Assembly: GCA_022826485.1 (NCBI GenBank)
Contig: JAJDUU010000047.1
Span: 45,070-109,069, forward strand
Length of the DNA: 64,000 nt
Direction: 5' to 3'
Origin: Chloroflexota bacterium
GTDB taxonomy: Bacteria > Chloroflexota > UBA11872
The position numbers were made by a program, and so were the translations under genes. This document shows, in pieces, positions 3,201-47,869 of the stretch. The notes beneath the pieces were generated by a model. It was not told the DNA's origin and made no database searches. It saw only the letters and a program-made list of their open reading frames with translations. The number at the start of each line of letters is the position of its first letter. Position 1 is the first letter of the stretch.

Positions 3201-3308
3201 CGCCCGCGCCACGTCCCACTGGGCCCGGTTGCCCTTGCGCCAGCCGCTGTCTTCGAGCATTGACTCCACGGTCGACTCGAAGGCTGCCTCGTTTGTCTGG
3301 GTGCTCAT
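219..3308 (-). CDS. hsdR: Type I restriction endonuclease subunit R (HsdR)
   Basis: 1029 aa. Nuclease-like ATVDLVFALNGLPVATCELKN, Walker A HSAGSGKT, DEAH box VDEAHSSQ, FAFTATPKGKT and a type I R C-terminal region. Adjacent to hsdS. Confidence 0.95.
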   Translation of the reverse strand: MSTQTNEAAFESTVESMLEDSGWRKGNRAQWDVARALFPARAVAFMRATQPEQWSAMAGLHGDNLERLIVEALVRELDLKGTLDVLRHGFKFYGKTFRLAYFKPAHGLNPEAMEQFARNELTVTRQVPCHPGSGATVDLVFALNGLPVATCELKNPMTGQTWRSAVRQYQQDRDPNAPIFEFRKRALVHFAADPDEVHMTTRLAGEWTRFLPFNRGDQPGDIRCGAGNPPHPSGYRTGYFWQEVLERVRFLDILGSYMFVERRDEKVEDDKGARIVTRETLIFPRYHQLDAVNRLVRHAAADGPGSNYLIQHSAGSGKTNSISWLSHRLASLHDQADRKVYDCVVVITDRRVLDRQLQDAVYQIEHAQGVVKAIDQDSRQLASALVDGTMIVITTLQKFPFVMQGLLRIAGADDPDHAGADEQAQAATWRKAIADRRYAVIVDEAHSSQSGESAREMKEVLGTRAQQAVEEAEDWEDRLNAVVESRGPQPNLSFFAFTATPKGKTLEVFGRRGASGKHEAFHVYSMRQAIQEGFILDVLEHYTDYNAYYGLAKRAADDPNFPKRKAAAALARFAQLHPHNLSQKTEVIVEHFRGNVRHHLDGRAKAMVVTSSRLHAVRYMQHFQRYIAEHRYDDIRPLVAFSGTVTDPDSGEEFTEPGMNIDVVTGKPISEAALPARFASPDYQILLVAEKYQTGFDQPLLQAMYVDKRLDGVQAVQTLSRLNRTAPGKAPPFVLDFVNDPEDIRSAFEPYYDRTDLLAASDPHRLEELKYELDQMQVYHQSEVEAFAQVFYLPRAKQQKKDHARLEAALQPARERFRQLDEENQDAFRDRLGAFVSLYAFLSQIIPYGDSELERLASFGRALLPHLLLERDNVAINLGDDVELAYYRLQRVSSGAISLGEGDQEYVVSPTDVGTGDPEDEKAPLSEIIERLNERFGTDFTNEDRLFFEQVKERAVRNEHIRETALANTLDKFSLGIRPEIGKLMMERMGENDALVTKYLSDADFQNIAFEVLAGEIFAAVRASEAAPG

Positions 3309-3314
3309 GGACGC

Positions 3315-4724: not shown

Positions 4725-5218
4725 CTATCCTTTAGCAGGATCATCATGTCGAATGCCGCGAGCTTCGCCTCGTCCCTCGTGCCGTGAAGCCTCTTCGACC
4801 GGACCATGCTCGGCTGCTCACTGAACCGCTCCGTGATTCGCCAGCCCCACCTTTCAAAGACCGGATACACGACGATGTTCATGCCGTCCGTATTGAGAAA
4901 GTGGTTTCCCTTTGCCGAAGTCCGCCATACTCGCGAAAGCCAGTTTCGTCGTCTGCCGATGGCGTTCTTCAGCTTCCGCTCGCGGGCGTCGGCCGCCATC
5001 GGGTCGAGTTCCATCCTCGACGCACATACGCTTCCCGTATCGAGTTTGAGACCGGACACGGGGTGGATCATGTGATGGACGTACCTGATTTCTTGATACT
5101 CACACATGTCACAAACCTCTCGACGTTCCCTGCCCAGATCCGTTACCGCTTCACACTCCCATCCCTTCCCTGGGTATCGCGGGTCGCCCCATTTGCCGCT
5201 ACCACGTCGATCGCTCAC
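4712..5218 (-). CDS. Small conserved-looking hypothetical protein with Cys motifs (CDMCEYQEIRYVHHM...GSVCASRM)
   Basis: 168 aa ORF. Its stop overlaps the hsdS start by 13 nt on the same strand. C-x2-C and a later Cys suggest metal binding. Confidence 0.7.
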   Translation of the reverse strand: MSDRRGSGKWGDPRYPGKGWECEAVTDLGRERREVCDMCEYQEIRYVHHMIHPVSGLKLDTGSVCASRMELDPMAADARERKLKNAIGRRRNWLSRVWRTSAKGNHFLNTDGMNIVVYPVFERWGWRITERFSEQPSMVRSKRLHGTRDEAKLAAFDMMILLKDRWQQ

Positions 5219-5271
5219 TGGCTATTCTCCCCAGACTGCGACCCACGGGGGACGGCTCACCACGCCCCCCT

Positions 5272-5311
5272 CCGTTCGCCCTGAGCCCGTCGAAGGGCTC
5301 ACCACGAACGG
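5272..5311. repeat. Composite palindrome between hicB and the small ORF: CCGTTCG-ccct-GAGCCC-gtcgaa-GGGCTC-acca-CGAACGG
   Basis: Read directly. Two nested perfect stems. Resembles dispersed intergenic palindromes of the 'gagcccttcgacgggctc' type. Confidence 0.8.
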
Positions 5312-5370
5312 GGAGAGTCGCGTGACCCACAGATCCCCCGGCCACCGCGACGCTCGACGCCGGGTGTCCG

Positions 5371-5715
5371 TCAGCCCGCCCGGACCGCTTGCGGGGCGGC
5401 AACCTCGATCTCAACCATCTCAAACCGGGTCGAGATCGCGGGGGCGGGCTCGCCGAACTCCCGGTAGGAGTTGAGCACGTCATCGGCGACGGGTTCGCCG
5501 TGATTCGCGATGGCCTCGTCGATGGACATCCTGGGCTCGGGGAGCGGCTCCCCGTCCGCCAGGATCGCCTCGATGTGAAACACCAGCGCCTCGCGGATCA
5601 TCGCCAGCATCTCGTCCCAGGTCTTGCCGGTGCTGACGCAGCCCGGGACGTCCGGCGCGTAGGCTGCGTAGTTGTTGGGCGTCTGCTCGAAGACGACGGC
5701 GTACGTGAGCTTCAT
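5371..5715 (-). CDS. hicB: HicB-family antitoxin
   Basis: 114 aa. N-terminal YAVVFEQTPNNYAAYAPDVPGCVSTGKTWDEMLAMIREAL is typical of the HicB fold. 4-nt overlap with the upstream hicA. Confidence 0.88.
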   Translation of the reverse strand: MKLTYAVVFEQTPNNYAAYAPDVPGCVSTGKTWDEMLAMIREALVFHIEAILADGEPLPEPRMSIDEAIANHGEPVADDVLNSYREFGEPAPAISTRFEMVEIEVAAPQAVRAG

Positions 5716-5912
5716 CGGCGTTCTCTCGCGAGGCCAGCCTGCTTCATGATACTGGCCCAGAGCTTCGGACCCAGATCGTCGCCCGGTTTGCCCGGAATCG
5801 TGACCTTGCCCGGCTTGACCGGGTGGCGAAACTGCCGGTGACTCCCCCGCGTGGTGACATGGCGCCAGCCGTCGCGCTCCACCATCCGGATCGCGTCCCG
5901 CACCTTCGGCAT
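5712..5912 (-). CDS. hicA: HicA-family toxin (YcfA-like mRNA interferase)
   Basis: 66 aa. GWRHVTTRGSHRQFRHPVKPGKVTIPGKPGDDLGPKLWASIMKQAGL, with the conserved G-S-H region. Directly upstream of hicB. Confidence 0.9.
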   Translation of the reverse strand: MPKVRDAIRMVERDGWRHVTTRGSHRQFRHPVKPGKVTIPGKPGDDLGPKLWASIMKQAGLARERR

Positions 5913-5961
5913 GGATCAGGCGGCCCGATTCGCGTCGGATCGATTCTTCCTGGTCACGCCG

Positions 5962-8064
5962 TCAGCTTCTCACGACATCGGAGAGCAGCCCGGCGATCTC
6001 CTGCTCCAATTGCTGCAAGTCGGACTTGATCGCATCGAGCGGGCGCGGCGGCTCGTAGACGTAGAAGTGCCGGTTGAGCGGAATCTCGTAGCCGACTCTC
6101 GTCTTGCTTTCGTCCACCCAGGCGTCGGGCACGTGCGGCAGGACTTCGCGCGCCATGTATTCGTCGATGTCTTCAGTTAGCGGCACCGTCTCCGTGTCGC
6201 GAAGGTCGGGGTCCGGCTCGGGTTCGCCGCGGCGGCTGCGGCAAATCTCGGCTTCCGGGTCGCGCTCGCACAGCGCCGCCAGCACCGCCTTGCGTTCGGA
6301 TGTCGAAAGCCGCAGATCCGCGGCGTCGCAGGCGTCTTTCAGCGACGCCGCGAATGTCTCGCGGTCGCGCACCACTTCACCGCCCGTGTCCTGTGCAAGC
6401 GATTGCAGCAGGCACCGGATTGCATTCTGTCGCGCCCGCCCCTCGGCGACCTCGGCGTCGTGCGCCGGGCCTGGGCGCTTCCGGCTCTTTGCGAGGTTTC
6501 GAAACGACCGCTGATCCTCGATCCGCGCGAGGCGCTCCGGGCTCGCGGCGAAGTTGAGCCGCAGCGGACGCTCGACGGTGATCTTGCGGTAGCCGAAGTC
6601 CTCGTTGGCGAACACCTTGCTCACGACGCGTGGGCGCGTGCGCGGCTGGTGCGTGACCGGATCGTCGTCCGTCAGGTCGCGCGTCTCGCCGTCCTGGAAG
6701 GCGCCGTGGATGCGCGTCAGGTCGTCGATCTGCTGGTCGGAAAGCTCGTTGCGCTTGTTTCCCAGGCTCTTGCGCATCTTGACGAAGAACTGCCGGCCGT
6801 CGATCAGTTGCACCTGGCCCGCGCGGTGTGACGCCTTGCGGTTGGTCAGCACCCAGATGTAGGTGGAGATGCCGGTGTTGTAGAAGAGCTGGTCGGGCAG
6901 CGCCACGATGGCTTCGAGCCAATCGTTTTCGATGATCCACTGGCGGATGTTGCTCTCGCCGCTGCCGGCGTCGCCGGTGAAGAGCGGGGAGCCGTTGAAG
7001 ACGATGGCGATGCGGCTGCCGCCCTCGTCCACTGGCTGCATCTTGGACAGCATGTGCTGCAAGAACAGCAGCGAGCCGTCGTTGATCCGCGGCAGCCCCG
7101 CGCCAAAGCGGCCGTCGAAACCGAAGGAATCGCGCTCCCACTCGATGTCGTGCCGCTGCTGCTTCCACTCCACGCCGAACGGCGGATTGGCCAGCATGTA
7201 GTCGAACGTCCACTTGCGGCCGTTTGGGCGGTGCCGGTAGCCGTCTTTGGTGAACGTGTCGCCCAGGATGATGTTTTCGGCGTTCTCGCCCTTGATGAGC
7301 ATGTCGGACGTGCAAACGGCCCAGGCATCGTCGTTATGGTCCTGGCCGAAGAGGTGCGGATTCGCGTCTTGGTTATGGTCGCGCAGGTGCTTTTCGGACA
7401 CCGAGAGCATGCCGCCGGTACCGCAGGCCGGATCGTAGATGGTCTTGACCTTGAACGCCTCGCCGAGGTCCGGCTCGGGCGAAAGCAGCAGGCTGACCAT
7501 CAGTTGGATGACCTCGCGCGGCGTGAAGTGCTCCCCGGCCTCCTCGTTGGCTTGCTCAGCGCCGATGCGAATGAGCTCCTCGAACACGTAGCCCATCTGC
7601 ACGTTGTCGACGCGCTCCGGCGAGAGATCGATGCCCGCAAACTTCCCGACGACCTGAAACAGCAGGTCTTTCCGGTTCATGTTCTCGATCTGCACATCGA
7701 AGGCGAAGCGCTCCATGATTTCGCGCACGTTCGGCGAGAAGTCGCGGATGTAGGCGGCGAGGTTCTGCGCGATCAGGTTGGGATCGTCCAGCAGCCGCTG
7801 AAAATCCAGCCGCGAGGTGTTATAGAACGAACGGTCCGAGGCTTCCATCAGCCGTTGGTGGTGCACGCTCTCGTCATGGGAGCGGTATTGGGCGTCGGCG
7901 GCGAGAACGTCCTCCTTCGTCGCGGCCAGCACGCAGTCGAAACGCCGCAGCACGGTGAGCGGCAGGATGACCTTGCGGTACTCGTTGCGCTTGTAGGGGC
8001 CGCGCAGCAGGTTGCAGATGCTCCAGATGAAGTTGGCGAGCTCGCCGTGCGTCTGGGTGTTCAT
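5962..8064 (-). CDS. hsdM: Type I restriction-modification methyltransferase subunit (HsdM)
   Basis: 700 aa. N6-DNA methylase with DPACGTGGML and the NPPFGVEW motif IV. Confidence 0.95.
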   Translation of the reverse strand: MNTQTHGELANFIWSICNLLRGPYKRNEYRKVILPLTVLRRFDCVLAATKEDVLAADAQYRSHDESVHHQRLMEASDRSFYNTSRLDFQRLLDDPNLIAQNLAAYIRDFSPNVREIMERFAFDVQIENMNRKDLLFQVVGKFAGIDLSPERVDNVQMGYVFEELIRIGAEQANEEAGEHFTPREVIQLMVSLLLSPEPDLGEAFKVKTIYDPACGTGGMLSVSEKHLRDHNQDANPHLFGQDHNDDAWAVCTSDMLIKGENAENIILGDTFTKDGYRHRPNGRKWTFDYMLANPPFGVEWKQQRHDIEWERDSFGFDGRFGAGLPRINDGSLLFLQHMLSKMQPVDEGGSRIAIVFNGSPLFTGDAGSGESNIRQWIIENDWLEAIVALPDQLFYNTGISTYIWVLTNRKASHRAGQVQLIDGRQFFVKMRKSLGNKRNELSDQQIDDLTRIHGAFQDGETRDLTDDDPVTHQPRTRPRVVSKVFANEDFGYRKITVERPLRLNFAASPERLARIEDQRSFRNLAKSRKRPGPAHDAEVAEGRARQNAIRCLLQSLAQDTGGEVVRDRETFAASLKDACDAADLRLSTSERKAVLAALCERDPEAEICRSRRGEPEPDPDLRDTETVPLTEDIDEYMAREVLPHVPDAWVDESKTRVGYEIPLNRHFYVYEPPRPLDAIKSDLQQLEQEIAGLLSDVVRS

Positions 8065-15640: not shown

Positions 15641-16996
15641 CTACACCCCCGCCCACGGCTCGGGATCAGTCTCATGGGGCATGCCGGCGGCCGCGCGCAC
15701 GTCGGCGGCGACGGCCAGGCTGCCGGTGGCCAGCACCGCCTCGCCGGGCTGGCATGCCGCGCGCGCCTGCCGCAGGGCCGCGTCGGACGATGACGCGATT
15801 TCGACCTGCCCGGCCAGGCCAAATCGCCGGACCATTCGCTCGGGCGTCCAGCCGCGCGGGTGGTGGGGCTGCACCAACAGCAGGCGGGTGGCGTAGCCGC
15901 GCAACTCGTCAATCATCACCGGCACGCGCTTGTCGCGTAGCGAGCCGAATATGACTGGTCCGCGTTGCACGTGGAAGGCCTCGCCCAGCCCCTTGACCAC
16001 GGCCGCCACGGCCTCGGGCGTGTGTGCGCCGTCCGCGATGGTCAGCGGATCCGAGGCGACTACCTCAAGCCGGCCCGGCCACTCGGTGGCGCCGAATCCG
16101 GCGCGGATGGCGCCGCGGTCGATTGGCAGTCCGTGATTCGCCAGCGCGCGGCAGATATGCCATGCGACGGCGGCGTTCCGACGCTGATGCGGGCCCGCCA
16201 GTCCCACCGGAAGACTGCTGCCGTCATCAGGCGCGCGCGTGAGCATCAGGGGGCGCGCGCCGCGCCGAGCCGTGGCGCCGTCCCAGCCCAGCGGTTCGAC
16301 AATGGTCAGCGGCGCTCCTTGGGACCGGCAGGCTGCCTGGAAGACCGAAAGCGCCTCGTCGGACTGCGCGGCGGCGATCACCGGCACTCCGGGTTTGATG
16401 ATGCCGGCCTTCTCCCCGGCGATGGCCTCCAGCGACTCTCCCAGCACGCGCGTGTGCTCCAGCACGATCGTCGTCAGGCCGACCACCGCCGGATCGATCA
16501 CGCGGGTCGCGTCCAGCCGCCCCCCGAGCCCGACCTCGATCACGGCCAGGTCAACCTCCTGCTCGGCGAACCACAACAGCGCGAGCACGGTTGCCAGCTC
16601 GAAGGTCGAGTACGGACCGTCCGCGGAATGAGCGGCGGACAGACGCTCCACCTGCGGCGCGAGACGATCACAGAGATTGGCGAAATCCCGGGGCTCGATG
16701 GGACGCCCGTCGACCGCGACACGCTCGCGGAACGAGTGGAGGTGCGGCTGGGTGTAGGCGCCGGTGCGCAGGCCGGCGGCCTCGGCCGCACTCGCCACCA
16801 GGGCGCAGACGCTGCCCTTTCCCTTGCTGCCGGCGACGTGCACACACGTCAGGTCATGGTGCGGATCGCCGAGCGCGCGCAGCAGCCGCCGCGTGCGCGA
16901 CGGTCCCGCTGCGTAGGCTTCGCGGCCCGCGTGGCCGACGCCGCGCTCCAGGTCGGCGAAGCCGTAGATCCAGCGCAGGGCCTCGGCGTAGGTCAT
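15641..16996 (-). CDS. folC: Bifunctional folylpolyglutamate/dihydrofolate synthase
   Basis: HVAGSKGKGSVCALVASAAEAAGLRTGAYTQPHLHSFRERV and EVGLGGRLDATRVIDP. Confidence 0.95.
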   Translation of the reverse strand: MTYAEALRWIYGFADLERGVGHAGREAYAAGPSRTRRLLRALGDPHHDLTCVHVAGSKGKGSVCALVASAAEAAGLRTGAYTQPHLHSFRERVAVDGRPIEPRDFANLCDRLAPQVERLSAAHSADGPYSTFELATVLALLWFAEQEVDLAVIEVGLGGRLDATRVIDPAVVGLTTIVLEHTRVLGESLEAIAGEKAGIIKPGVPVIAAAQSDEALSVFQAACRSQGAPLTIVEPLGWDGATARRGARPLMLTRAPDDGSSLPVGLAGPHQRRNAAVAWHICRALANHGLPIDRGAIRAGFGATEWPGRLEVVASDPLTIADGAHTPEAVAAVVKGLGEAFHVQRGPVIFGSLRDKRVPVMIDELRGYATRLLLVQPHHPRGWTPERMVRRFGLAGQVEIASSSDAALRQARAACQPGEAVLATGSLAVAADVRAAAGMPHETDPEPWAGV

Positions 16997-33856: not shown

Positions 33857-33940
33857 GCCGAGGTGGCGGAATTGGTAGACGCGCTAGCTTGAGGGGCTAG
33901 TGGCCTCCGGGCTGTGCGGGTTCGAGTCCCGCCCTCGGCA
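33857..33940 (+). tRNA. tRNA-Leu (anticodon GAG)
   Basis: Acceptor gccgagg/cctcggc, anticodon stem ctagc/gctag with loop ttgaggg, long variable arm, and T-loop gttcgagtc. CCA not encoded. Confidence 0.95.
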
Positions 33941-34037
33941 CCCTGAGGAATGGAGCGCCCTGCTCGTTGCCGGCGATTCTGGGAAGCAAGTCATCCAGGC
34001 CGGACCGGAGCATCGAACTGACTGGCGGCCGCGCCAA

Positions 34038-34835
34038 ATGAAGATCGTCTGCTGGAACATGGCGCACTCGCGCAAAGCGTGGGATGCGATGGTTCAGATG
34101 GACGATGTCGACGTTGCGCTCTTGCAGGAAGCCTCGCGCGTGCCCGATGACCTCCGTCACCGCGTCGACGTCGACCACAGGCTGTGGGACGGGCGTCACA
34201 GCGACTGGATGGTGTATCCCTCGGTGGTGGCCCGGCTGTCGGACCGGGTTTCCACCAGCTTCATTACTACTCAGCTGATCGGCGATCCGTACAGCCACGA
34301 CTTCTACACCAGCGAGTGGGGCACGCTCGGCGCCGCGGTGGTGAACTCAGACGACGGCAGCGAGCCGCTCACCGTTGTCTCAATGGCTGCCGGCGGTGAC
34401 AACTTCACCCATGAGTCAGGCTCGCCGAGTCGTCGTGAGGCCATTGGTTCAGTGCACCGGCTGATTTCGGATCTCTCACGCTTGGTCGGCCGTCGAAGCC
34501 GCGTCATTGCCGCCGGCGACTGGTCGATCAACCGAGGCTGGAGCAGTCATCCGACGGCGGTCTGGAACGAACGCGAGGCGCTGCACTTTCAGACGGCATT
34601 TGACCGAATGCGAGCACTGGGCTTTCGCCACCTCATGCCGGAGGGCCGACGCGGATATCGCGACGACGTGGTGAGCTTTAAACCGATCGGGATGTCACCC
34701 GCGGAGGCGTGGGGGCAGCTCGACTACGTCTTCGCCACCGAAAACATCGCCGACCGCGTGTCCGTCCGCGCTCTGAACGAACCTGACAAGTGGGGTCCGA
34801 GCGACCACTGTCGCCTCGTCATTGACATCGACTGA
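34038..34835 (+). CDS. Endonuclease/exonuclease/phosphatase (EEP) superfamily protein
   Basis: MKIVCWNMAHSRKAWDAM...DVALLQEASR...VIAAGDWSINRG...WGPSDHCRLVIDID: the N, E, D and SDH motifs. Confidence 0.88.
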   Translation: MKIVCWNMAHSRKAWDAMVQMDDVDVALLQEASRVPDDLRHRVDVDHRLWDGRHSDWMVYPSVVARLSDRVSTSFITTQLIGDPYSHDFYTSEWGTLGAAVVNSDDGSEPLTVVSMAAGGDNFTHESGSPSRREAIGSVHRLISDLSRLVGRRSRVIAAGDWSINRGWSSHPTAVWNEREALHFQTAFDRMRALGFRHLMPEGRRGYRDDVVSFKPIGMSPAEAWGQLDYVFATENIADRVSVRALNEPDKWGPSDHCRLVIDID

Positions 34836-34960
34836 GCTCCGAAATTCGACGCCACCCAAGGCATCGCCCAATTTCCCGACCGCAAGATTCATCGCGGGGA
34901 CGGCGTTGGTCCTGGTAGCGCCTTGATGGACGACCAATTCGGTGAGGCAGCCGGCGAGGT

Positions 34961-37900
34961 CTAGGCCTTTGCATCGGGAGCCGGCGGACGCAGATCGATC
35001 CGCATCTCGGAAATCCGTTCTGGACTTCGGGCGACGCCGCGACGGTGAAGCGCGGCCAGCATGTCTTCCTGCCTCGGCTGACCGAACGCCAGTCGGTAGA
35101 GCGCCAGCGACTCCTGGAGCCGTGCCCAGCGATCCTCATCGCGACTCAAGGGAAGCGCCATGATTCGCCGGTGCAGTTTGGCATCGCCCGGATATATCCA
35201 GCAGGGAGACAGGCCTCCGAGATCTTGGCCACTCTCCGCCGCGGCGGCTTCGAAGACCGCCGACCAGGGATCCTCAACTCCGAGAGCCAGCGCTGCCGAT
35301 CGGTGAGCGGACGCGACGTTCTTGCGGATTGCGTGTCCTTTGTAGCGGTCCACCCGGCCCTCACGCTGCTCGAAGTCGACCGGGTTGCCGGGAAGGTCCC
35401 AATGAACCACCGAATGGCACCACCAGTGGAAATCGATGCCCTCTTGGCCGACGGAAGTCGTCGCGAGTACAAACGGCCAAAACGGCGAGTTGAATGCCGC
35501 CCTTACCTCGGGAAGCCTCGCTTCATCCTGGCCCTGGCGCGTGCTGCCGAAGCGCATTGCGTATCTGCTCGGAAACGCGATGCCCTCGCCGTCGAAATCG
35601 TCGATGTCAGTTGCGCGGTAGACCGACTCCCGCACGGCAATTGCGTGCCGCGCGGTTGCGGCAAGCGAGATCAGACCCTCGTCGGTCGTCGTGTTGACTC
35701 CTGATTCCCCGGCGAGGTGGTGGACGTACTCATCGAGGACGGCTTGCAGGCCGCCGTCGATGCAATAGCGAGCGACCCGGCGCCAATAGGCGCCATCGTC
35801 CTCGTGCGTGCTGCCGGATCTCGCGTATAGGCCGTCGAGCAGGAGAATCGCCACGGGCCGGGCGAACACACTCCGCAGCCCCGACGCGAGAATCGCCGCC
35901 GCGCGCCACTGCCCCAACTCGGTCACCCGGTCGTGCGGTCGCTTCAGCCGGTTGAGCGCTCGCCAGGCGATGTTCCCTGGTGCTCCTAAACCCAGAAGCG
36001 CGCTGGTCGTGAGCAAGTCTGCCGGCCGTTCCGGCTCCGGAACCGGGCCGTCGAGGGCCGTGAGCGCTTGCTCCACATGCGCGTCGAGCGCGCGAGGCAC
36101 GTCTTCCACCGGGTGCTCTGAAGACGCCCCCGCGAGAGCCTCGGTCAACGTGCTCCGGCGCGCGCCGAGGAGCGCGGATGCAAGCGAGCTGTCCCGGTTG
36201 GCGTGTACCGGCGCGAACCAGTGCCAGACCGCACTGGCCGTCGAAACTGTACGACCGGCCGGGCCGACGACGGCCTTCGCCCGACCCTCCGCCCACTCGA
36301 TAAGACGCTCCACGCTTGGCGACTCGGCGTGCTCACGCGCGGCGTCGAGCGGGTCGGTACGCGACGCCAGCGTCGGCTGCGGCCAGAACAATGCCAGCGC
36401 CGACATCGAAGCCGGCCGCTCGTTGGCCAGCCGATAGTCGAGGCGATTGGATATGGCCGCTCGGGCTGCGGGGGAGTTCTCGAATCTCCCGGCTTTCGTG
36501 AAGATCCGCCGCTGGACCTCGTAGCTCAGGAGGGAGGCGATGGCCGAAGGGGCGGCCACCCAGCTGGAAAAGATGAGCTGCTTGGTGATTGCGGTCGAAT
36601 CGATTGACTCGTAAGGACCGCCGAGCCGGTGGTAGGGCAGGGACGGCGGCATCCAGAGCAGTCGCCACCAGTCCGCACCGAGGGTCTCCTCGGCCAACGC
36701 TCGCAATCGAGCATTGGCCCACTCGACCGGCCGGAATCGCTGAACGTTGGGTCTTGCGATCCGCTGTGCGCCGCGGAAGAGCGGCATTAGCGAGGCCCGG
36801 CGATCCGGAGCCTTCATCGCGTCGCGCACGTGCTCCCCAACGCGATACCCCGCCAGAAAGTTGAGAAAGTAGGGGGCCGACTTCCAGTACTCGACGGTGA
36901 GCGGCGCATCGACCGCGTCTGCGACACGTCGCAACGCGACGAAGCCCAGGAAATCGTCCGCGCGGACTCCGAATCGCTCCGTGGTCTTTGCGAGCGTGGT
37001 GGTTTGACGGGCGTCCGTGGGCCGCTCGGTGCGAGCGATCCACCTCCGGAGCTGGGTCTGCACGCGGTCCCGGATCGCCGCCGTCGGCTCGCCGGAGAGC
37101 GCCGCCTGTCGCAGTGCGCCGAGATCGGTGCGCAGGGTGTCCACCGGTTCCTCCGAGGCCGCGAGGAACTCCAATGTCTTCAGGAAATCCTCGTAATGCC
37201 CGCCGCCATCCCCGGTCTCCTCGGCATATGTAAACGGTTTGTACGGTGTGGCCGAAAGCAGCAGGACGCGCGCATCGGACTGCGTGAAGAACGCGTGCGC
37301 CAGCTCGGCCGCTTCGCCGCCGGTCTTCACGTCGAGGAGGTCTCGAAAGCGCTGAAACTCATCCAGGATCACGAGGTCCGGCTCCAGCGCCTGGACGGCG
37401 GCTCGCGCGAGCATCCGCCGCAAGCTGCCGACGATGCCGCGAGCGGCTCGGTGCTGGTCGGCGGTCAGAGCCCGGCGTCCCACGACTTCATCGACCAGCG
37501 CGAGGAGTGCTCCCCGCTCGCAGCTCCGGTCGAACTCCTCCAGAAACGTCCGGCGGATGCTGGATTCGAAGCGCTGTGAATGGGCGTGAGCGACGTACGA
37601 CTCGACGAATCTCAGTCGGCTGGCCACGAATCCTTGGAAGATCCGCTGCGCCGCCGTCGCCCGCGCGCGGTGCAAGCCGAGGTGGCCGCGAAGGAGCACG
37701 TAGAGCACGGCGCGCTCCGCGGCGGTTCCCAGCTGCCAGCCGAACTGAAAGGACGTGGCCGGCGTGAATGCGACGAACGTGGCCGGCTTCCCGGCGCGGT
37801 CGCCCGTGGGAGTCAGCACGTCCGGCTTGGTGATGAGCAGACTCAGCCGCGTAGCGAAGCTCGGGGTCTCCGATCCTGTCACGTTGAGCTTGCGGATATT

Positions 37901-38149
37901 CTGCGCGGCGATATCGGCGTTGGAGCACACGTAGACGATGTCGATGCGACGCACGCGGTCGACCTGTTGAAGGTGTTCCAGGGTCAGGGCGATGACTTCC
38001 TGTGCGACGTGCGTCTTGCCCAGCCCGGTCTCATCGGCCACGAGAAAGCGCCGCGACGAGTCCTGATCGCGATACAGCCGCCGGAACGCGTGCGCGGCCG
38101 TCGCGCGTTGGAATTCGCTCAATGCGCGCGTCGGGCCTTTCCGAGTCAC
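34961..38149 (-). CDS. SNF2/RapA-like SF2 helicase (defence-associated candidate)
   Basis: FLVADETGLGKTHVAQEV (motif I), VILDEFQRF (motif II), LLLSATPYKPF (III), VGQEGIDFHWWCHSVVHWDLPGNPVDFEQREGRVDRYKGH (V/VI). GTG start at 38149 overlaps the PLD stop. Confidence 0.88.
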   Translation of the reverse strand: MTRKGPTRALSEFQRATAAHAFRRLYRDQDSSRRFLVADETGLGKTHVAQEVIALTLEHLQQVDRVRRIDIVYVCSNADIAAQNIRKLNVTGSETPSFATRLSLLITKPDVLTPTGDRAGKPATFVAFTPATSFQFGWQLGTAAERAVLYVLLRGHLGLHRARATAAQRIFQGFVASRLRFVESYVAHAHSQRFESSIRRTFLEEFDRSCERGALLALVDEVVGRRALTADQHRAARGIVGSLRRMLARAAVQALEPDLVILDEFQRFRDLLDVKTGGEAAELAHAFFTQSDARVLLLSATPYKPFTYAEETGDGGGHYEDFLKTLEFLAASEEPVDTLRTDLGALRQAALSGEPTAAIRDRVQTQLRRWIARTERPTDARQTTTLAKTTERFGVRADDFLGFVALRRVADAVDAPLTVEYWKSAPYFLNFLAGYRVGEHVRDAMKAPDRRASLMPLFRGAQRIARPNVQRFRPVEWANARLRALAEETLGADWWRLLWMPPSLPYHRLGGPYESIDSTAITKQLIFSSWVAAPSAIASLLSYEVQRRIFTKAGRFENSPAARAAISNRLDYRLANERPASMSALALFWPQPTLASRTDPLDAAREHAESPSVERLIEWAEGRAKAVVGPAGRTVSTASAVWHWFAPVHANRDSSLASALLGARRSTLTEALAGASSEHPVEDVPRALDAHVEQALTALDGPVPEPERPADLLTTSALLGLGAPGNIAWRALNRLKRPHDRVTELGQWRAAAILASGLRSVFARPVAILLLDGLYARSGSTHEDDGAYWRRVARYCIDGGLQAVLDEYVHHLAGESGVNTTTDEGLISLAATARHAIAVRESVYRATDIDDFDGEGIAFPSRYAMRFGSTRQGQDEARLPEVRAAFNSPFWPFVLATTSVGQEGIDFHWWCHSVVHWDLPGNPVDFEQREGRVDRYKGHAIRKNVASAHRSAALALGVEDPWSAVFEAAAAESGQDLGGLSPCWIYPGDAKLHRRIMALPLSRDEDRWARLQESLALYRLAFGQPRQEDMLAALHRRGVARSPERISEMRIDLRPPAPDAKA

Positions 38150-39978
38150 GAGTCGTCCGCGAGCATTGCGCGTCGTGCCTCGAGGGCCGGCAGCCACACG
38201 TCGTCCCAGCCCGGAGGAAGCACGGACCGACCATTGGGTGACCGGCGGAGGTGTTCGACGATTCCCTCCAGGTGGTCGATGGCGTCGGGCCTCTCGGACA
38301 GGGCGCGCGCGAGCAGCTCCAGGACACCCTGGCCGTCCCCGGCGGACCAGCTTCCCTGCCCATTGCCCGTCACGGCGGCCTCCAGCCCACTCCCCGCAGC
38401 GAAGCCAATCAGAAGGGCGAGCAGACGCATGAACTTCTCCGGCGTGTCGATCTGCCGGGCCAGGATTGTCTGGAAGCGGTCGTCAGGCGCACCCTCGAGC
38501 CGCGAGCAAACGACGGCCGAGCATTGAACCGGCTGGCCTTCGACCGTCCGGCACGCCGTGAGCTGAAGAAACGCCGTGAGGTCGGCAAGTTCCCGGGGTG
38601 GTAGCTCGACGTCTACCGGCTCCGCGTGACGGAGCGGGTAGGTCTCGGCCTCACGGTTGTGGGGAGCGATGGTGAGGCCCGTGCCTTCGGGGATGGGCGG
38701 CAGTGCGTCATCGGCGGTAATGCGGGCGACCCATCCGTCGTCCCCTTGCGTCACGGTCGTACGAAAGCGAACACCTCCCGCAATATCGAACAGCAGCCCC
38801 TCGAGCTCCCTTTCGGCCTTGCTGGCTGCGTCGTCTTCCGCCTCAGCGGAGGCAACGTAGGGCGTCAGCATGGCTCGGAACGGTGCGTCGTCACCGACCA
38901 TCGCGTTTACGCCGAACTTTGCGACCGGGCCGACGAGCTCGCAGAGGAACTCGATGTTCCTGCCGAAAGCTGCGCTCGTCGCGTTGGCGGAGCCGACGAA
39001 GGTGCGTGCGAGCCGGGCACGCTCCACGACGAAGATCTTTGCATGCAGGTCGGTGAGGACCGTCTGGTTCGTGTTTTCCTCGACATCGTCCAGCGCGAGG
39101 CTCGCTGCCGGATCGAGCTCGTAGACATCCAGGTGTTCCAGCGCGTCCGAAGGGAGCAGATCGAGCTCATCGCCGCGTGAGACGAGCACCGCCGTCTGGC
39201 CGGCCTTTGGCCGGAAAATACTCCGTACCGCACCGGGACCGACGAAGGGTGAGATCGCGAGCTTGCGATAGCCGCGGAAGTGCTCCTCGGCTTGAAACGG
39301 GCGCGCGTCCGAGATTCCGATGGGATGGAAGTGAGCCTCGCGAACGCCGGCTGGCAATTCCCATTCGACCCGTCGCAGTTGGTCGGCGAGGGCATCGAGC
39401 AGCTCGCGTCGTCCTGGTGAAACAGGCGAAACGGCCATTTCGGGCAGCGCGCCAAAAAACTGCGCCAGCGGCTCGCCGCCGTTAGCTGATTTGGGGTGGG
39501 GCTTCCCGTCAAGCCGGAGGATCGTGTCCCAGTTGCGACTGGCGGCCAGGTTTCGGGACAGCACGAGGAGTCGATAGGACGGCTCCTGCGACTGATCGAG
39601 GAATCGGAGAACCCAGGTCTTGGGATGGAAGATGCCGCCCGCCGACGGCCGACGTACGGGGTGGACCACGTCTTCGAGAAGTGCCACCAGGTCAGACGGC
39701 CACTTCTTGGCATGGATGGCGCCGGCCTGACAAAAGATGTCCATGCGGCCGCTCATTCCGCGCAGCGCCTGCATGACCTCGACGGGGTCCGACTGCTCAT
39801 CGAACTGAAAGCCCGCGAAGGCGAGCGGGACCGTCAGGGCCGTCTCCAAGTCGAGAGTGAACGTCGTCGCGACTGCGTGATCCAGGGAGTGGCCCGGAAG
39901 CGGCCGCAGGGCATCGAGCAATAGCTCGCGGGTGTCAGGCGCGAGCACGATGATTCTCCCGCCCGTTGGCGATGTCAT
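38146..39978 (-). CDS. Phospholipase D-like (HKD) family protein
   Basis: GGIFHPKTWVLRFLD...LVLSRNLAAS and LHAKIFVVERARLARTFVGSANATSAAFGRN: two HxK motifs. Confidence 0.87.
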   Translation of the reverse strand: MTSPTGGRIIVLAPDTRELLLDALRPLPGHSLDHAVATTFTLDLETALTVPLAFAGFQFDEQSDPVEVMQALRGMSGRMDIFCQAGAIHAKKWPSDLVALLEDVVHPVRRPSAGGIFHPKTWVLRFLDQSQEPSYRLLVLSRNLAASRNWDTILRLDGKPHPKSANGGEPLAQFFGALPEMAVSPVSPGRRELLDALADQLRRVEWELPAGVREAHFHPIGISDARPFQAEEHFRGYRKLAISPFVGPGAVRSIFRPKAGQTAVLVSRGDELDLLPSDALEHLDVYELDPAASLALDDVEENTNQTVLTDLHAKIFVVERARLARTFVGSANATSAAFGRNIEFLCELVGPVAKFGVNAMVGDDAPFRAMLTPYVASAEAEDDAASKAERELEGLLFDIAGGVRFRTTVTQGDDGWVARITADDALPPIPEGTGLTIAPHNREAETYPLRHAEPVDVELPPRELADLTAFLQLTACRTVEGQPVQCSAVVCSRLEGAPDDRFQTILARQIDTPEKFMRLLALLIGFAAGSGLEAAVTGNGQGSWSAGDGQGVLELLARALSERPDAIDHLEGIVEHLRRSPNGRSVLPPGWDDVWLPALEARRAMLADDS

Positions 39979-41155
39979 TGAGGAGTCGACCCACGGCCGG
40001 CCAGCGGAACTGAATGCGCCCGGACCCGGACGCGCCGCCCCATTGACGCATGAGCCGGTCATTGCGCAGCCGAGCCTGGCTGCGCTTCTGGAACAACTCG
40101 CGGCTTCGGACCAGCGCCCGGGCATCTACGTTGTCGGTGAGCCCATGGCCGTTCATCCGCTTTGTCAGGTTGACCCAGGAGGCCACGAACTCACGCGTAC
40201 GACCCTTGACCGGCGCGCCCCGCTCGGCGATCAGTGCCCATAGGCCGTCAAGGTCCCAGCTGCCTAAGTCGCTGTTCTCGATCTCGCGGCGCCACTTGTC
40301 AAGCCGGTTGGCGAAATCGTCCCGGCTGCCGTCGTATCTGGAGAGTTCGAGTTGCTCGGCACGTTCGGCAAGGAGGATGTTGTAAAGCAGCGCGGCCCCG
40401 TGCATTGCCAGCGCGAAGCGGCGAGCTTCGTTGAGTGCGTCGCGGATTCGGCCCGTTGCCGCTGCGGCGTCGGGATCCTCCCAGGGGTAGGCGACGCCGG
40501 CTGAGCCGCGGCTCCCCCGTTCGACCAGGAACTGAAGCAGAGTCTCGGGCACCGCGTCGACGATCCGCTCGGCGAGCCACGTCGCCTCGTCGTGGGTAAG
40601 GGCGAAGTCACATCGCTTGAGGTCGAAGAACCCGTCCGGCGCCGGGGGAATGGTGGGCGCCCAGACGGCGTTTGACTGTCCGAGGAATTCTGTCGCGTCG
40701 TCGACTGAGCGCGTGACCTGCGGCAAGCCCACCACCTCGCCTGGCGTTGCCTCGCGCCGCAGAATCTTGAATCGTCGCAGGGTGTTCCAGTAGATGGTGG
40801 ACGGAAGGATCTTGACCGCAGCCCCCGCCTGGACGCCGATCAATCCATCCAGATCGCCACCCTTGCGCAGCGCGCCGATGAGTTGACGTTCATTCCACTC
40901 GACCCACTGGGTGAGCTTCGAGCCGACGTGCCCTCGGCGCGCCCCCTCGCGATACAGCCAAGGAATGAAGAAGAGGTACCGGGCACGTGTGAGCAGCACG
41001 GAGGTTCCGGGGAATAGCGTGTCGCTGAGCGCATCGCGAATCCCGCCGAGTCCCAGCTCGTCGCGACTCTCGGGCTGCGAGAAGAACCTGATGATCTCGC
41101 GGGCTCGTTGCTGTTCAGCCGCGGAATGGTCGAGCCACGCGAGAGTGGCCGGCAT
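39935..41155 (-). CDS. DUF6361-like protein
   Basis: ATLAWLDHSAAEQQRAREIIRFFSQPESRDELGLGGIRDALSDTLFPGTSVLLTRARYLFFIPWLYREGARRG resembles DUF6361 as I recall it. Overlaps the PLD gene. Confidence 0.75.
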   Translation of the reverse strand: MPATLAWLDHSAAEQQRAREIIRFFSQPESRDELGLGGIRDALSDTLFPGTSVLLTRARYLFFIPWLYREGARRGHVGSKLTQWVEWNERQLIGALRKGGDLDGLIGVQAGAAVKILPSTIYWNTLRRFKILRREATPGEVVGLPQVTRSVDDATEFLGQSNAVWAPTIPPAPDGFFDLKRCDFALTHDEATWLAERIVDAVPETLLQFLVERGSRGSAGVAYPWEDPDAAAATGRIRDALNEARRFALAMHGAALLYNILLAERAEQLELSRYDGSRDDFANRLDKWRREIENSDLGSWDLDGLWALIAERGAPVKGRTREFVASWVNLTKRMNGHGLTDNVDARALVRSRELFQKRSQARLRNDRLMRQWGGASGSGRIQFRWPAVGRLLNDIANGRENHRARA

Positions 41156-41406
41156 GTGTGGGCTTTCACTTGCGGCTACGCCTGTGAACTATTGATGAGA
41201 GCAGGTCAAAACTGCAAGGCCCGCCTGCAACCCGATCCCAGTGTGTGGCCCGCGCATTGTCCGAAGCCACGCCCACGTTGCCGACCGGTTGAGGTGACGG
41301 CTTCACCGGTGGCGTCTCGGGAAGTATGTTGGCAGCGCGCTTGCGCTGATTTCGTGTGTGGCTGTGGTGGGGCTGGCGGCCATGGGGACGGGCTGGTGAA
41401 TCGGCG

Positions 41407-44400
41407 ATGCAACTGATTGACGACCGCCTGGTGTACTCCGCCACCGATCTGGTGGCGTTCTTGGAGTGCCGGCACCTGGCCAACCTGGAGCGGGCCGTGG
41501 CCCTGCGCCACCTCAAACGACCCTATCGAGACGACCCGGTGCTCGACCGCATGGCGCGGCGGGGTCGCGAATACGAGGAGCGTTTTCTGGAAGCGCTGCG
41601 GGCGCAGCATCTGCAAATCAGGGAAATCCGGCCGCCGGACACCGTTTCCCCGGCGCGGGCGGTTGAGTCCGAGCACGCTGAGACGCTGCGGGCCATGCGG
41701 GAGGGCGTTGACGTGATCTACCAGGCGGTGTTGCTCGGCGACCGGCGGCTGGGCTATGCGGACTTCCTGCGGCGCGTCGAGACGCCCAGCGACCTCGGGG
41801 CCTGGAGCTACGAAGTCTGGGACACGAAGCTGGCGCGGAAACCCACGGCGTCCGCCGTGCTGCAGATCGGCATGTACTCCGACCTGCTGGGCGCCATGCA
41901 GGGGCGGCAGCCGGACCGGATGCACCTGGCGCTGGGCGGGGTCGAGCGGCAAACGGAGAGCCTGCGCGTGGCCGACTACGCGGCCTATTGCCGCCTGGTG
42001 GCGCGCGAGCTGGAGGGCATGCTCGACGAGCCCGAACCGGCGGTTCCCGTCACCTCGAAGCCCGAACCGGTGGGGCATTGCGACTTCTGCCGCTGGAGCC
42101 AGGCGTGCCGGGACCAGTGGCGCCGCGAGGACGACCTGGCCCTGGTGGCCAACCTGACGACCCGCCAGCGCCGGGCGTTGCACACGGTGGGCGTGACCAC
42201 GCGGCGCGGGCTGGCCAACCCGTCGCCGCCGCTGCCGGATCGGCTGGACGGCGTCAGCCAGGAGTCGCTGGCCGGGGCGCAGGCGCAGGCGAACATCCAG
42301 GTGCGCGGCGACGGCCGCGTCATCTCCGAGCGCATCCCGCCGGAACGCGACCGCGAAAACACGCTCGTTCCGGACCGGGGTCTCTGGGCGCTGCCGGCGC
42401 CGTCGCCGGGAGACCTGTTTCTGGACCTGGAGGGCGATCCGTTCTTCGGATCCGACGAGATCGACGGAATCGACTATCTCTTCGGCCTCATCGAGCCGGG
42501 ACTGACCGACGCCGCGGGCGAACCGACGTTTCACGCCTTCTGGTCGATCGTGGACGGCACGGTGTCGCCAGCGGCCGAGCGGCAGGCGTTCGAGGACTGC
42601 ATCGACCTCATCATGAATCGCTGGGCGGCGCACCCGGGCATGCACGTCTATCACTACGCGCCCTACGAGACCACGGCCATGAAGCGGCTGGCCGGGCGCT
42701 ACGCCACCCGCGAGTCGGAGGTGGACCAGCTCCTGCGCGGGAGGGTCTTCGTGGACCTGTATCGGGTGGTGCGGCAGGGGATCAGGGCCTCGGTGGAGAG
42801 CTACTCGATCAAACGGCTGGAGCCGCTCTACGGGTTCAAGCGCGAAGTCGATCTGCGCGACGCGGGTGAGAGCATCGTGGAGTTCGAGCACTGGCTCGAA
42901 CCCGAGGAAGGAACCGATCGCGAGGCGCTGCTGGAGCAGATCAAGGCCTATAACTGCGACGACTGCCTGTCCACCTACTACCTGCGCGAGTGGTTGGAGG
43001 GGCAGCGCAGCGCGCTGGCGAGGGAGGTCGGCGCCAAAGCCCCGCCGCGTCCGACGGGCGCGCCGCCCGAGGAAACCGAGGACACGGAGACTCAGCAAGC
43101 GGTGCAGGAACTGGTGCACCATCTGACGGCCGACCTGCCCGAGGACTTGACGGACGGCCGGTCGCTCGAAGACCCGACGCAACGCGGTCGCTGGCTGCTG
43201 GCGCAGCTGCTCGACTGGCACCGGCGGGAAGACAAGGCGTTCTGGTGGCGCTATTTCCACCTGAAGGACGAGTTGACTGACGAAGAGCGCGTGGACGAGT
43301 CCGACGCGCTGGGCCGGCTCACGTTCGCGGGCAGCCGACCCGATCCCAGGCCGAATGCCAAATCCACGATCTATAGCTTTCGCTTTCCGCCGCAGGACCA
43401 CAAGTTCGACGTTGGCGATACGCCTCGCGATCAGGACGGGAATTCGGTGGGCGAAGTGGTCGCGGTCGACGACCAATCCTGCGTGATCGACCTGAAGCTT
43501 GGGTCGAGTCGCGCGGCACCTGAGCCGACGTCGCTGATTCCCTACCAATATGTTCGTCCAGGCCCAAAGCCGCCAAGCCTTTGGGAGCTGGCCGAGTGGG
43601 TGATCGACTGCGGGATCGACGGGCCTGGTCCCTATCGGGCGGCGCGCGACCTGCTGATGCGCCGTCCGCCGCGGGTGGGACAAGTCGAGGGCGCGCCGCT
43701 GATGACGGCCGGTGAGGATGCGCAGGATGCGGCCCGGCGGTTGATCCAGACGCTCGATGCGAGCTACCTGGCGATCCAGGGACCGCCCGGATCGGGCAAG
43801 AGCACGGTCGGCGCGGAGATGATCGTGGACCTGGTGGCGACCGGAAAGCGCGTGGGGGTGACGGCCAACAGCCACAAGGTGGTCGGTGAGCTGCTGGAAA
43901 AGACGGCGCGGGTGGCGGTCGAACGTGGAATCCACGTCAAGATCGGCCAGCGGACGGGATTTCGGACCGGTGTGCCCGCATTCGTCGACGCCGAACCTCT
44001 GGCGAATGTGGACGATGCGTGCCTCGCCCTCAGGACGGGCTCGCTCGACGTGGTGGGCGGAACCTCCTGGCTCTGGGCGCGGGGTGAAGTCGAGGGTCTG
44101 GTGGACGTGCTCTGCATCGACGAGGCCGGGCAGATGTCGCTGGCCGACGCGCTGGCCTCGGCGCGCTGCGCCGACAGCCTGTTGCTGCTCGGCGACCCGC
44201 AGCAGCTGGATCAACCGCTGCAGGGCGTGCATCCGCCGGGCGCAGACCGCTCGGTGCTGGCGCACGTGCTCGATGACGCCCGAGTGATGCCTAAGGACTA
44301 CGGCCTGTTTCTCGACGGTACGTGGCGCCTGCATCCCAGCATCTGCGAGTTCACCTCGGAGGTGTTCTACGAGGACAGCCTGCACTCGCATCCGGGCCGG

Positions 44401-44952
44401 GAGAATTTGGATCTGGACGGTTCATCCCCCTTCGAAGGGACCGGGTTGCGTTTCGTGAAGGTCGAGCACGAGCGCCGCATCAGCGACTCCGAGGAAGAGG
44501 CCGACGCCATCGCCAAGACCGTCGACCGGTTGCTCCGATCGCGCCCCTCCTGGACCGATGCCGAGAGGGCGAGCCACACGCTGACGGATCAAGACGTGCT
44601 CATCATCACGCCCTACAACCGGCAGATCCGGGAGCTGTGCTCCCGACCCGAGCTCGAGGAGTTGCGCATCGGCACGGTGGACAAGTTCCAGGGCCAAGAA
44701 GCCCCAATCTCGATCTACTCGATGGCGACCAGCTCAGCCGAAGAGGCGCCGCGCGGCATGGAATTTCTCTACAGCCTCAACCGCTTGAACGTCGCCACCA
44801 GCCGGGCCAAGTGCCTCGCGGTGGTCGTGGCCAGTCCCGGCCTGCTCGCCGTGCGCTGCCGCACGCCCCGCCAAATGCACCTGGCCAACGCCCTCGCGCG
44901 GCTGTTCGAGATGGCCCACGACGAAATCAAGAGTTCCTTGAGGCTGCCGTAG
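41407..44952 (+). CDS. TM0106-type RecB/Cas4-like nuclease fused to an RNase H-like domain and a UPF1/DNA2-type SF1 helicase
   Basis: GVDVIYQAVLLGDRRLGYADFLRRVE...YEVWDTKLAR nuclease core. CDFCRWSQAC plus LECRH as possible Fe-S Cys. GDLFLDLEGDP (RNase_H_2). GPPGSGKST, CIDEAGQM, GDPQQLDQP and VDKFQGQEA...NVATSRAK. Confidence 0.9.
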   Translation: MQLIDDRLVYSATDLVAFLECRHLANLERAVALRHLKRPYRDDPVLDRMARRGREYEERFLEALRAQHLQIREIRPPDTVSPARAVESEHAETLRAMREGVDVIYQAVLLGDRRLGYADFLRRVETPSDLGAWSYEVWDTKLARKPTASAVLQIGMYSDLLGAMQGRQPDRMHLALGGVERQTESLRVADYAAYCRLVARELEGMLDEPEPAVPVTSKPEPVGHCDFCRWSQACRDQWRREDDLALVANLTTRQRRALHTVGVTTRRGLANPSPPLPDRLDGVSQESLAGAQAQANIQVRGDGRVISERIPPERDRENTLVPDRGLWALPAPSPGDLFLDLEGDPFFGSDEIDGIDYLFGLIEPGLTDAAGEPTFHAFWSIVDGTVSPAAERQAFEDCIDLIMNRWAAHPGMHVYHYAPYETTAMKRLAGRYATRESEVDQLLRGRVFVDLYRVVRQGIRASVESYSIKRLEPLYGFKREVDLRDAGESIVEFEHWLEPEEGTDREALLEQIKAYNCDDCLSTYYLREWLEGQRSALAREVGAKAPPRPTGAPPEETEDTETQQAVQELVHHLTADLPEDLTDGRSLEDPTQRGRWLLAQLLDWHRREDKAFWWRYFHLKDELTDEERVDESDALGRLTFAGSRPDPRPNAKSTIYSFRFPPQDHKFDVGDTPRDQDGNSVGEVVAVDDQSCVIDLKLGSSRAAPEPTSLIPYQYVRPGPKPPSLWELAEWVIDCGIDGPGPYRAARDLLMRRPPRVGQVEGAPLMTAGEDAQDAARRLIQTLDASYLAIQGPPGSGKSTVGAEMIVDLVATGKRVGVTANSHKVVGELLEKTARVAVERGIHVKIGQRTGFRTGVPAFVDAEPLANVDDACLALRTGSLDVVGGTSWLWARGEVEGLVDVLCIDEAGQMSLADALASARCADSLLLLGDPQQLDQPLQGVHPPGADRSVLAHVLDDARVMPKDYGLFLDGTWRLHPSICEFTSEVFYEDSLHSHPGRENLDLDGSSPFEGTGLRFVKVEHERRISDSEEEADAIAKTVDRLLRSRPSWTDAERASHTLTDQDVLIITPYNRQIRELCSRPELEELRIGTVDKFQGQEAPISIYSMATSSAEEAPRGMEFLYSLNRLNVATSRAKCLAVVVASPGLLAVRCRTPRQMHLANALARLFEMAHDEIKSSLRLP

Positions 44953-45945: not shown

Positions 45946-46899
45946 CTACCCGGCGTCCCCGCCTTCTCCAGCACCCGCTTGCCCCACTTGGCGCAATTGG
46001 ACTCCCGAGTGCTCCCAGATCTCGATGTCGGAGACTCCGCTCGGTAAGTGCTTGTTGACGACCGTGAGTACGACGCCTTGGCGCCGCCGCACTTTAGGGC
46101 TCCTGAGGTCGCGACCGAAGCCAACCACTGCCCGAATGTCGCCGCTCAACCGTGGAACTGGACGCGTCAACCCTGCGTCGATGCGCGCACTGATCAACGC
46201 CTGGACGCCGTCGAGCACCGCGTCGAATGCGTCGTGCCACTCCCAGATCGACTGCAGGAGCTGGAATGGTGCGTAGTAGAGACCGGCAGTCGATTTAGAG
46301 GCGTCCTTGAGTTCGATAAGCACCAGGCGTCCGCACGAGTCCACCCCGAGTTGGTCGAGTTCGGTTGCTCCTGGTGCTGGCGCCGCCCATCCGTTGCTCG
46401 CGGCGATGGCGGTCAGGTCCGCGAGAGCTGCCCTGACTCTCGGAAAGGCCAACGCGTCGGCTTGCCCTTCCAGAACCACCTCGCGATCAATCGGGACCCA
46501 CGGTTCGCTCACGCGCGACCACTGCATCTGGATCGCGCCCTCAGCCTTGGTCCATCTCGCGCTGACCTTCACCCCGTGCACATAGGTCGAAAGCGCCCGG
46601 CTGAATCCCGACTCTCCGACGTGCCAGGTGCGGAAGAGGTCGCGGGCGCACGCCTGGGTGGCGTACGTCCGATGGGCCGTGATCCTTACGCCTCGGCTCC
46701 GTAGAAACTTCGCGATGAGGATTCGTGTCATCCCGCAGTAGACGTGTATCTCGTCGTTACGGCGGAAATGCAAATCGAGTCCCAGTTCGCCGGTTCTCTC
46801 CTTATCCAACGACAGCAACGGCTCCAAGATTCCGGCCAGTCTGAGGTGCTTCAGATACTCCGGCGAGGGCGCACGGTCGTATGGCCGCGGTGGTGACAT
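45946..46899 (-). CDS. Uncharacterised protein with a possible PD-(D/E)XK nuclease core
   Basis: ATELDQLGVDSCGRLVLIELKDASKSTAGLYYAPFQLLQSIWEW fits E...D...ELK plus a following helix. Confidence 0.6.
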   Translation of the reverse strand: MSPPRPYDRAPSPEYLKHLRLAGILEPLLSLDKERTGELGLDLHFRRNDEIHVYCGMTRILIAKFLRSRGVRITAHRTYATQACARDLFRTWHVGESGFSRALSTYVHGVKVSARWTKAEGAIQMQWSRVSEPWVPIDREVVLEGQADALAFPRVRAALADLTAIAASNGWAAPAPGATELDQLGVDSCGRLVLIELKDASKSTAGLYYAPFQLLQSIWEWHDAFDAVLDGVQALISARIDAGLTRPVPRLSGDIRAVVGFGRDLRSPKVRRRQGVVLTVVNKHLPSGVSDIEIWEHSGVQLRQVGQAGAGEGGDAG

Positions 46900-46909
46900 G
46901 GAGGTCTCG

Positions 46910-47869
46910 CTACAGCTGATAGCGCTCGCGCATGTAGGCCGCCCAACTCTTGAGCCCCTCTGCTTCGCCGGCGCTCACGATGGCCGACGCCGGCAGCACC
47001 GGCGCCATGGATGGCTGGGGTAGGAGATGGGACCACTCCGACCAGAGTGCGGCAATGTCGGGGTTGGAATCGTGGGCGCAGAGCGCGAACCAAGCCCGGT
47101 GCACCGTGCCGTCCTGTACCAGACCCTGGGCGATGGCGAGGTTGCGCATGGGCTGCTGCATGTCGAAGGCGAACGGGCATGGGCCATTGAGATCAGCGTT
47201 GGGAAAGGCGTTGCGCACGCTGCCGTGGCTTCGAGCGAAGATTTCCCAGTAGCGCCGATCTCGCCGCTGCCGCACCGGACGTCGCAAGTAACAGGCGTTC
47301 GGCTCGTGCATGAAGAGGCTCGCGGACCGACACACGTCTTTGCGCCGATTCCCTCGGCTTTCACGCCCGCCACAGGCTGTGAACTCCCCCTCGCTCAGCT
47401 TGACTTCGAGCAGCACGGCGGCGCGGCGTCGAGAGCTTGTTTGGCCCCACAGCACCACGTCGGCGGCCGTGGCGGGCTCGTCCCCGACCGGCCGATCGCC
47501 CCTGATCTCCCCGAGCAATCCGCCCGGCGGCACCCACTCGAACTGCACCCGGTCGATGGCCAGCCGGGCGCCGACTTGCCGGTTGACGAGCTCGGACAGC
47601 CGGTCGAGGCGGCCTTCTCGAAACGGCAGAAAGAGGTTGAAGGCGAACGCCTGCGAGCTGCGCACGTGCGGCGCCTGCTTGTGCAGCCTCACCTGATCGT
47701 CGCGCACGACTTGCTCGGCAAGGTCGCGATACGCCGGGAATATGCCGTCCGTCCAGTGGCTCCAATAGCGCGATCGGGAGCCATCCATTTGGGCTCGCCA
47801 CTCTTCCAAGTGCGCTTGCAGGCGCGCGGCGAATGGCGTTTGCCCTCTGCCGGGTCTAGCGCTGGTCAC
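46910..47869 (-). CDS. PGN_0703-type putative restriction endonuclease
   Basis: AADVVLWGQTSSRRRAAVLLEVKLSEGEFTACGG and CRSASLFMHEPNACYLRRPVRQRRDRRYWEIFA. Confidence 0.75.
   Translation of the reverse strand: MTSARPGRGQTPFAARLQAHLEEWRAQMDGSRSRYWSHWTDGIFPAYRDLAEQVVRDDQVRLHKQAPHVRSSQAFAFNLFLPFREGRLDRLSELVNRQVGARLAIDRVQFEWVPPGGLLGEIRGDRPVGDEPATAADVVLWGQTSSRRRAAVLLEVKLSEGEFTACGGRESRGNRRKDVCRSASLFMHEPNACYLRRPVRQRRDRRYWEIFARSHGSVRNAFPNADLNGPCPFAFDMQQPMRNLAIAQGLVQDGTVHRAWFALCAHDSNPDIAALWSEWSHLLPQPSMAPVLPASAIVSAGEAEGLKSWAAYMRERYQL

Follow-up and report, generated by a model that had tools for sequence, protein, structure and literature searches.

A full Azaca (ZacABC) gene set from a member of the Chloroflexota and a candidate motor-coupled nuclease mechanism

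Gene content and identity of the locus

Positions 34961-41155 of the window (the whole stretch of 64,000 nucleotides analysed here) are filled by three adjacent minus-strand genes, which are transcribed in the order zacA, zacB, zacC:

39935..41155, minus strand: zacA, first gene of the operon, encoding a DUF6361 protein of 406 aa that is predicted to be all-helical (PADLOC ZacA, PF19888)
38146..39981, minus strand: zacB, encoding a single-chain PLD-superfamily nuclease of 611 aa with two HxK half-sites (PADLOC ZacB; PLD3/Tdp1 fold match)
34961..38149, minus strand: zacC, encoding an SNF2-like SF2 helicase/translocase of 1062 aa with invariant motifs (PADLOC ZacC)
38146..38149, minus strand: GTGA stop/start overlap of zacB and zacC, read from the sequence

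ZacB was counted from the ATG at 39981, the start that fits its relatives, and for ZacC the GTG within the overlap was taken as the start; the mechanical frames extend to 40125 and 38197, respectively. About 47 bases are shared by the zacA and zacB frames. The original prediction had described three minus-strand genes for a DUF6361 protein, a PLD protein with two HxK motifs and an SNF2-like helicase with a DEFQ box, and this description proved correct. The GTGA overlap that it had placed at 38146-38149 is likewise borne out by the sequence and probably couples zacB and zacC translationally.

When compared with PADLOC profiles, all three proteins were matched nearly end to end by ZacA (E=3e-123; residues 1-399 of 406 aligned to positions 1-394 of the 396-position profile), ZacB (E=1.4e-157) and ZacC (E=0, 1063 bits, over 23-1071). 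We are therefore close to certain that the three genes constitute a complete Azaca operon, Azaca being the name of ZacABC, an anti-phage defence system, in DefenseFinder (PMC12278908, PMC10925250). The system is credited to Millman et al. 2022 in PMC10952713, a paper that also remarks on its PLD domain. Phage protection by other Azaca copies is reported second-hand, through citing papers, and would extend to this one. The operon had previously been thought to match no named system, which was wrong, as these profile hits reveal a complete system known to both PADLOC and DefenseFinder. It looked unnamed because Pfam recognises only ZacA, as DUF6361 (PF19888, E=1.6e-65), and NCBIfam yields only sub-threshold DISARM and Dpd matches. 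What stands of the earlier view is a standalone defence module built from DUF6361, PLD and SNF2-like helicase proteins; what falls is its lack of a name. The window copy has the same three families as Azaca, nearly at full length and in the same order, and differs only in belonging to a Chloroflexota lineage; nothing structurally new was seen in it. No methyltransferase was found within 34961-41155. Those DNA methyltransferase hits that the window does contain belong to a type I system, for which PADLOC matched methyltransferase and specificity profiles among the window genes, probably those at its left end (219-8064, minus strand).

Predicted properties of ZacB, ZacC and ZacA

The HxK motifs of ZacB are H119-P-K121 and H313-A-K315 (611-aa numbering), and the residues of both half-sites (H119, K121, R143 and N144; H313, K315, S331, N333 and E344) are invariant in 77/77 homologues. 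Tdp1 carries HxK...N half-sites without the canonical aspartate. ZacB resembles it in having two HxK...N half-sites in one chain, with the canonical aspartate absent, and since both half-sites lie in one chain, one composite active site per chain would be expected. The predicted ZacB structure (mean pLDDT 88.6) found its best fold matches in PLD3 and yeast Tdp1 at an E-value of about 1e-8 and moderate TM-scores (0.34-0.53); further matches were the nucleases SauUSI, BfiI and R.NgoAVII, and at the profile level ZacB matched the SauUSI nuclease region (E=1.6e-5). DNA is a putative substrate only, since polyphosphate kinase and phospholipase D1 were recovered as matches of the ZacB model as well.

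In ZacC, the SF2 motifs I, II (DEFQ), III (SATP), V and VI are all kept. Conservation across 71 homologues covers GxGK, DEFQ, SATP, motif V and QREGRxxR, the key residues of which are invariant (71/71). The protein is SNF2-like, whereas the helicase of Hachiman is Ski2-like (PMC10925250). Both nuclease and motor residues are thus intact in the Chloroflexota copy.

The AlphaFold2 model of ZacA (mean pLDDT 89.3) is almost purely helical and gave no significant fold match in the PDB or in BFVD (viral models), the two libraries to which any notion of a new fold is limited. Neither a DNA-binding nor an enzyme motif could be recognised in ZacA. Its pI is 9.57 here, compared to a family median of 6.1, and we dropped the idea of DNA binding by ZacA based on its high pI, which is not a family trait. 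No ZacA relatives in viral contigs were confirmed, the phage records searched giving one partial match that covers a third of the protein, and none of the papers searched dealt with DUF6361.

Conservation, distribution and genomic site of Azaca

When about 85,000 species genomes were scanned with a ZacA profile, at least 509 loci emerged, the best 80 of which were used for comparison; distant DUF6361 proteins lie outside this set. These best 80 loci belong mostly to Actinomycetota and Chloroflexota, but also to Pseudomonadota, Myxococcota, Bacillota, Planctomycetota and others. Among them, the order zacA-zacB-zacC on one strand was found in 75/75 three-gene loci, in 58/75 of which zacB and zacC overlap by an NTGA, and the loci without the full gene set sit at contig ends. 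Given that 71-79 aligned homologues from several phyla retain the key residues and that all 75 loci retain order and strand, the arrangement is not due to chance. Moreover, the pairwise divergences of ZacA, ZacB and ZacC correlate with r=0.92-0.95, a value reached in 0/999 permutations, and with 0.77-0.88 when distant pairs only are considered; we conclude that the three genes travel together.

No fourth conserved partner gene emerged, as the commonest neighbour families occur in at most 14/76 loci and at varying rank and side. Most identified neighbours at other Azaca loci are defence genes, namely type I and type ISP restriction, PLD-Snf2, DUF4011 helicase and NERD-UvrD, and no consistent methyltransferase neighbour was present at the loci surveyed. 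A protein of about 690 aa, encoded at L056:16422-18503 and by relatives in five further actinobacterial loci, lies near Azaca on either side; it has no Pfam or PADLOC match and is a possible undescribed defence gene.

In the tree, the Azaca copies of the host's lineage group together as a single clade, within which the window copy is about 61-84% identical to the rest, while its ZacA shares about 40-45% identity with actinobacterial copies. Among the 80 best loci, out of at least 509, the nearest relatives come from Dehalococcoidia/SAR202-type bins. Azaca was found in 12/19 genomes of the host's family versus 5/380 elsewhere in the phylum (Fisher p about 1e-14, not corrected for relatedness). 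The operon is also found on a Cronobacter plasmid, and there are plasmid-borne copies elsewhere. A contig-end ZacA fragment titled Gammaproteobacteria (VXPO01000113.1, locus L033) is 71% identical to the ZacA of the window, and its bin label may be wrong.

Comparison with genomes of the same genus placed the operon within a variable site, which comprises the following features:

34836..41273, unstranded: block present or absent as a unit, consisting of zacABC plus about 0.2 kb; homology with genus mate G141 (locus L103) breaks at 34835 and 41274
33857..33942, plus strand: tRNA-Leu (gag), the 3' 51-59 bp of which recur as orphan fragments in genus mates
33900..34835, plus strand: flanking gene outside the system, weakly endonuclease/exonuclease-like (weak ExoIII match)
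41356..44952, plus strand: divergent flanking gene outside the system, encoding a TM0106/RecB-like nuclease fused to an Upf1-like SF1 helicase (TIGR03491, E=1.9e-74; AAA_12)

Two genus genomes, G010 and G125, carry zacABC between the same two flanking genes as the window. G141 retains both flanks with 79 bp in place of zacABC, from which it follows that the operon was gained or lost as one block. In genus mate G051 (L104:5866-16884), the slot instead holds genes for two long trypsin-2 proteins, a type I HsdR, a YgjP-like metallopeptidase and a TIR-domain protein. The flanking gene at 33900..34835, which probably has its true start downstream of the tRNA, is kept beside the site with or without zacABC, and the gene at 41356..44952, at the edge of the variable slot, is likewise kept in 6/6 genus genomes. 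Orphan 3' fragments of the tRNA-Leu lie a few kilobases away (L103:9492-9547, L105:15763-15817, L106:17493-17551 and 16523-16577) and look as scars of repeated integration at the tRNA gene would. Third-position G+C is 0.77-0.79 in zacB and zacC compared to about 0.85 in most window genes. Collectively, the empty site in G141, the replacement genes in G051, the tRNA fragments and the lower G+C of zacB and zacC indicate that this defence island has a swappable slot, which ZacABC fills here.

Beside an ADP-ribosylglycohydrolase gene, at 45946-47869 (minus strand), the window holds a further in/out block of the island. Of its two genes, one encodes a REase-ARP/PDDEXK protein (PF22558, E=1e-22) and the other a product of 317 aa that has no assigned family. 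The block is present in G141 but lacking from the corresponding position in G010 and G051.

Candidate mechanism and alternative explanations

The mechanism of Azaca is listed as unknown in a review (PMC12926258) and a survey (PMC10482375). The reading that we favour overall combines the Azaca identity with a motor-coupled nuclease mechanism, to which together we assign a probability of about 0.7. According to this model, the SNF2-like motor ZacC would be loaded on invading DNA and translocate using ATP, and the Tdp1/PLD3-like nuclease ZacB would ride with it and nick or degrade the DNA. ZacA would either bridge ZacB and ZacC in such a complex, or recognise the trigger and hold the nuclease off until then. 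For the specific version in which Azaca is an ATP-dependent nuclease of this kind with ZacA as its recognition or gating subunit, we consider the odds to be about even. The suggestion of the original prediction that DUF6361 may be the recognition or core component found neither support nor contradiction.

The motor-coupled nuclease is favoured because there are precedents for a nuclease and an SF2 motor acting by ATP-driven translocation: SauUSI translocates on DNA and shreds it (PMC7913695), and translocation is also described for CglI, in which a nuclease is joined by an ATPase (PMC5737866). The domains and the predicted fold of the Zac proteins fit this type, in which ZacB and ZacC would form one DNA-cutting complex, with moderate TM-scores. 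Like ZacABC, SauUSI (PDB 7clg) unites a PLD nuclease and an SF2 translocase, and its nuclease domain is matched by both profile and model of ZacB; however, it is a single fusion protein that includes a target-recognition domain, whereas ZacABC is split in three and contains no known recognition domain. In CglI/NgoAVII, the nuclease and the helicase-like ATPase are separate subunits as in ZacABC (PMC5737866), and the ZacB model matches R.NgoAVII, but CglI reads a defined DNA site as part of a restriction-modification system, while Azaca has no linked methyltransferase. By analogy, Azaca would be comparable in action to SauUSI or CglI, as a split relative lacking such a methyltransferase. A bolder idea, which we consider rather unlikely, is that ZacA, with a fold unseen in solved structures, acts as a dedicated sensor or regulator by which a motor-coupled Tdp1/PLD3-like nuclease is directed against phage DNA, in which case Azaca would be a mechanistically new helicase-nuclease class and not a split SauUSI.

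The same make-up allows for other modes of action. ZacC might sense DNA ends or replication intermediates and free ZacB to clear all DNA, so that the cell dies by abortive infection. Hachiman (HamAB) works in this way (PMC12278908) and, like ZacABC, combines a helicase and a nuclease without a methyltransferase, in line with the lack of a consistent methyltransferase neighbour at Azaca loci. This explanation is possible but rather doubtful, since Hachiman consists of two proteins from other nuclease and helicase families: ZacC is not Ski2-like (PMC10925250), ZacB is a PLD protein and not of the D-E(X)K type of HamA, and the third protein, ZacA, has no counterpart in Hachiman. Alternatively, ZacA or ZacC could read modified phage bases and ZacB cut, as in the modification-dependent (type IV-like) restriction of SauUSI, the PLD nuclease and SF2 motor of which make up the same combination (PMC7913695); in keeping with this, Azaca has no linked methyltransferase that could protect self DNA. 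We regard this as unlikely, given that no known base-reading domain was found in ZacA, ZacB or ZacC and that the ZacA fold matches nothing in the PDB.

The lineage distribution and the Tdp1 resemblance of ZacB could also be taken to mean that zacABC is a housekeeping DNA repair operon of the host's family, where it is so much more frequent than elsewhere in the phylum, and not a defence system. However, zacABC is absent as a block in genus mates, HsdR and TIR genes take its place in G051, and Azaca resides on plasmids and in defence islands elsewhere, all of which makes a repair role highly improbable. A partial or divergent DISARM module, comprising DrmC and DrmD with DUF6361 replacing DrmAB, can be practically dismissed. 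ZacABC shares with DISARM one PLD protein (DrmC) and one SNF2-like protein (DrmD), and both gave weak matches, but their scores (54.5 bits against an NCBIfam cut-off of 610 for DrmD, 22.5 against 133 for DrmC) are far surpassed by those of the ZacABC models, and DrmA, DrmB and the DISARM methyltransferase are absent from the operon. Neither DrmA nor DrmB was called in the seven nearest genes or in 40 further genes of the window, and DrmA gave a single match, of 35.8 bits, to a 57-residue stretch of the ZacC helicase C domain. DISARM membership was therefore rejected, in agreement with the original prediction, which had kept the operon apart from DISARM.

The Chloroflexota operon offers testable points on Azaca in its invariant catalytic residues, a nuclease fold close to Tdp1/PLD3 and a ZacA fold without a PDB or BFVD match. 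The natural empty site shows that the three Azaca genes move as one unit, and the system is unusually common in one Chloroflexota family.
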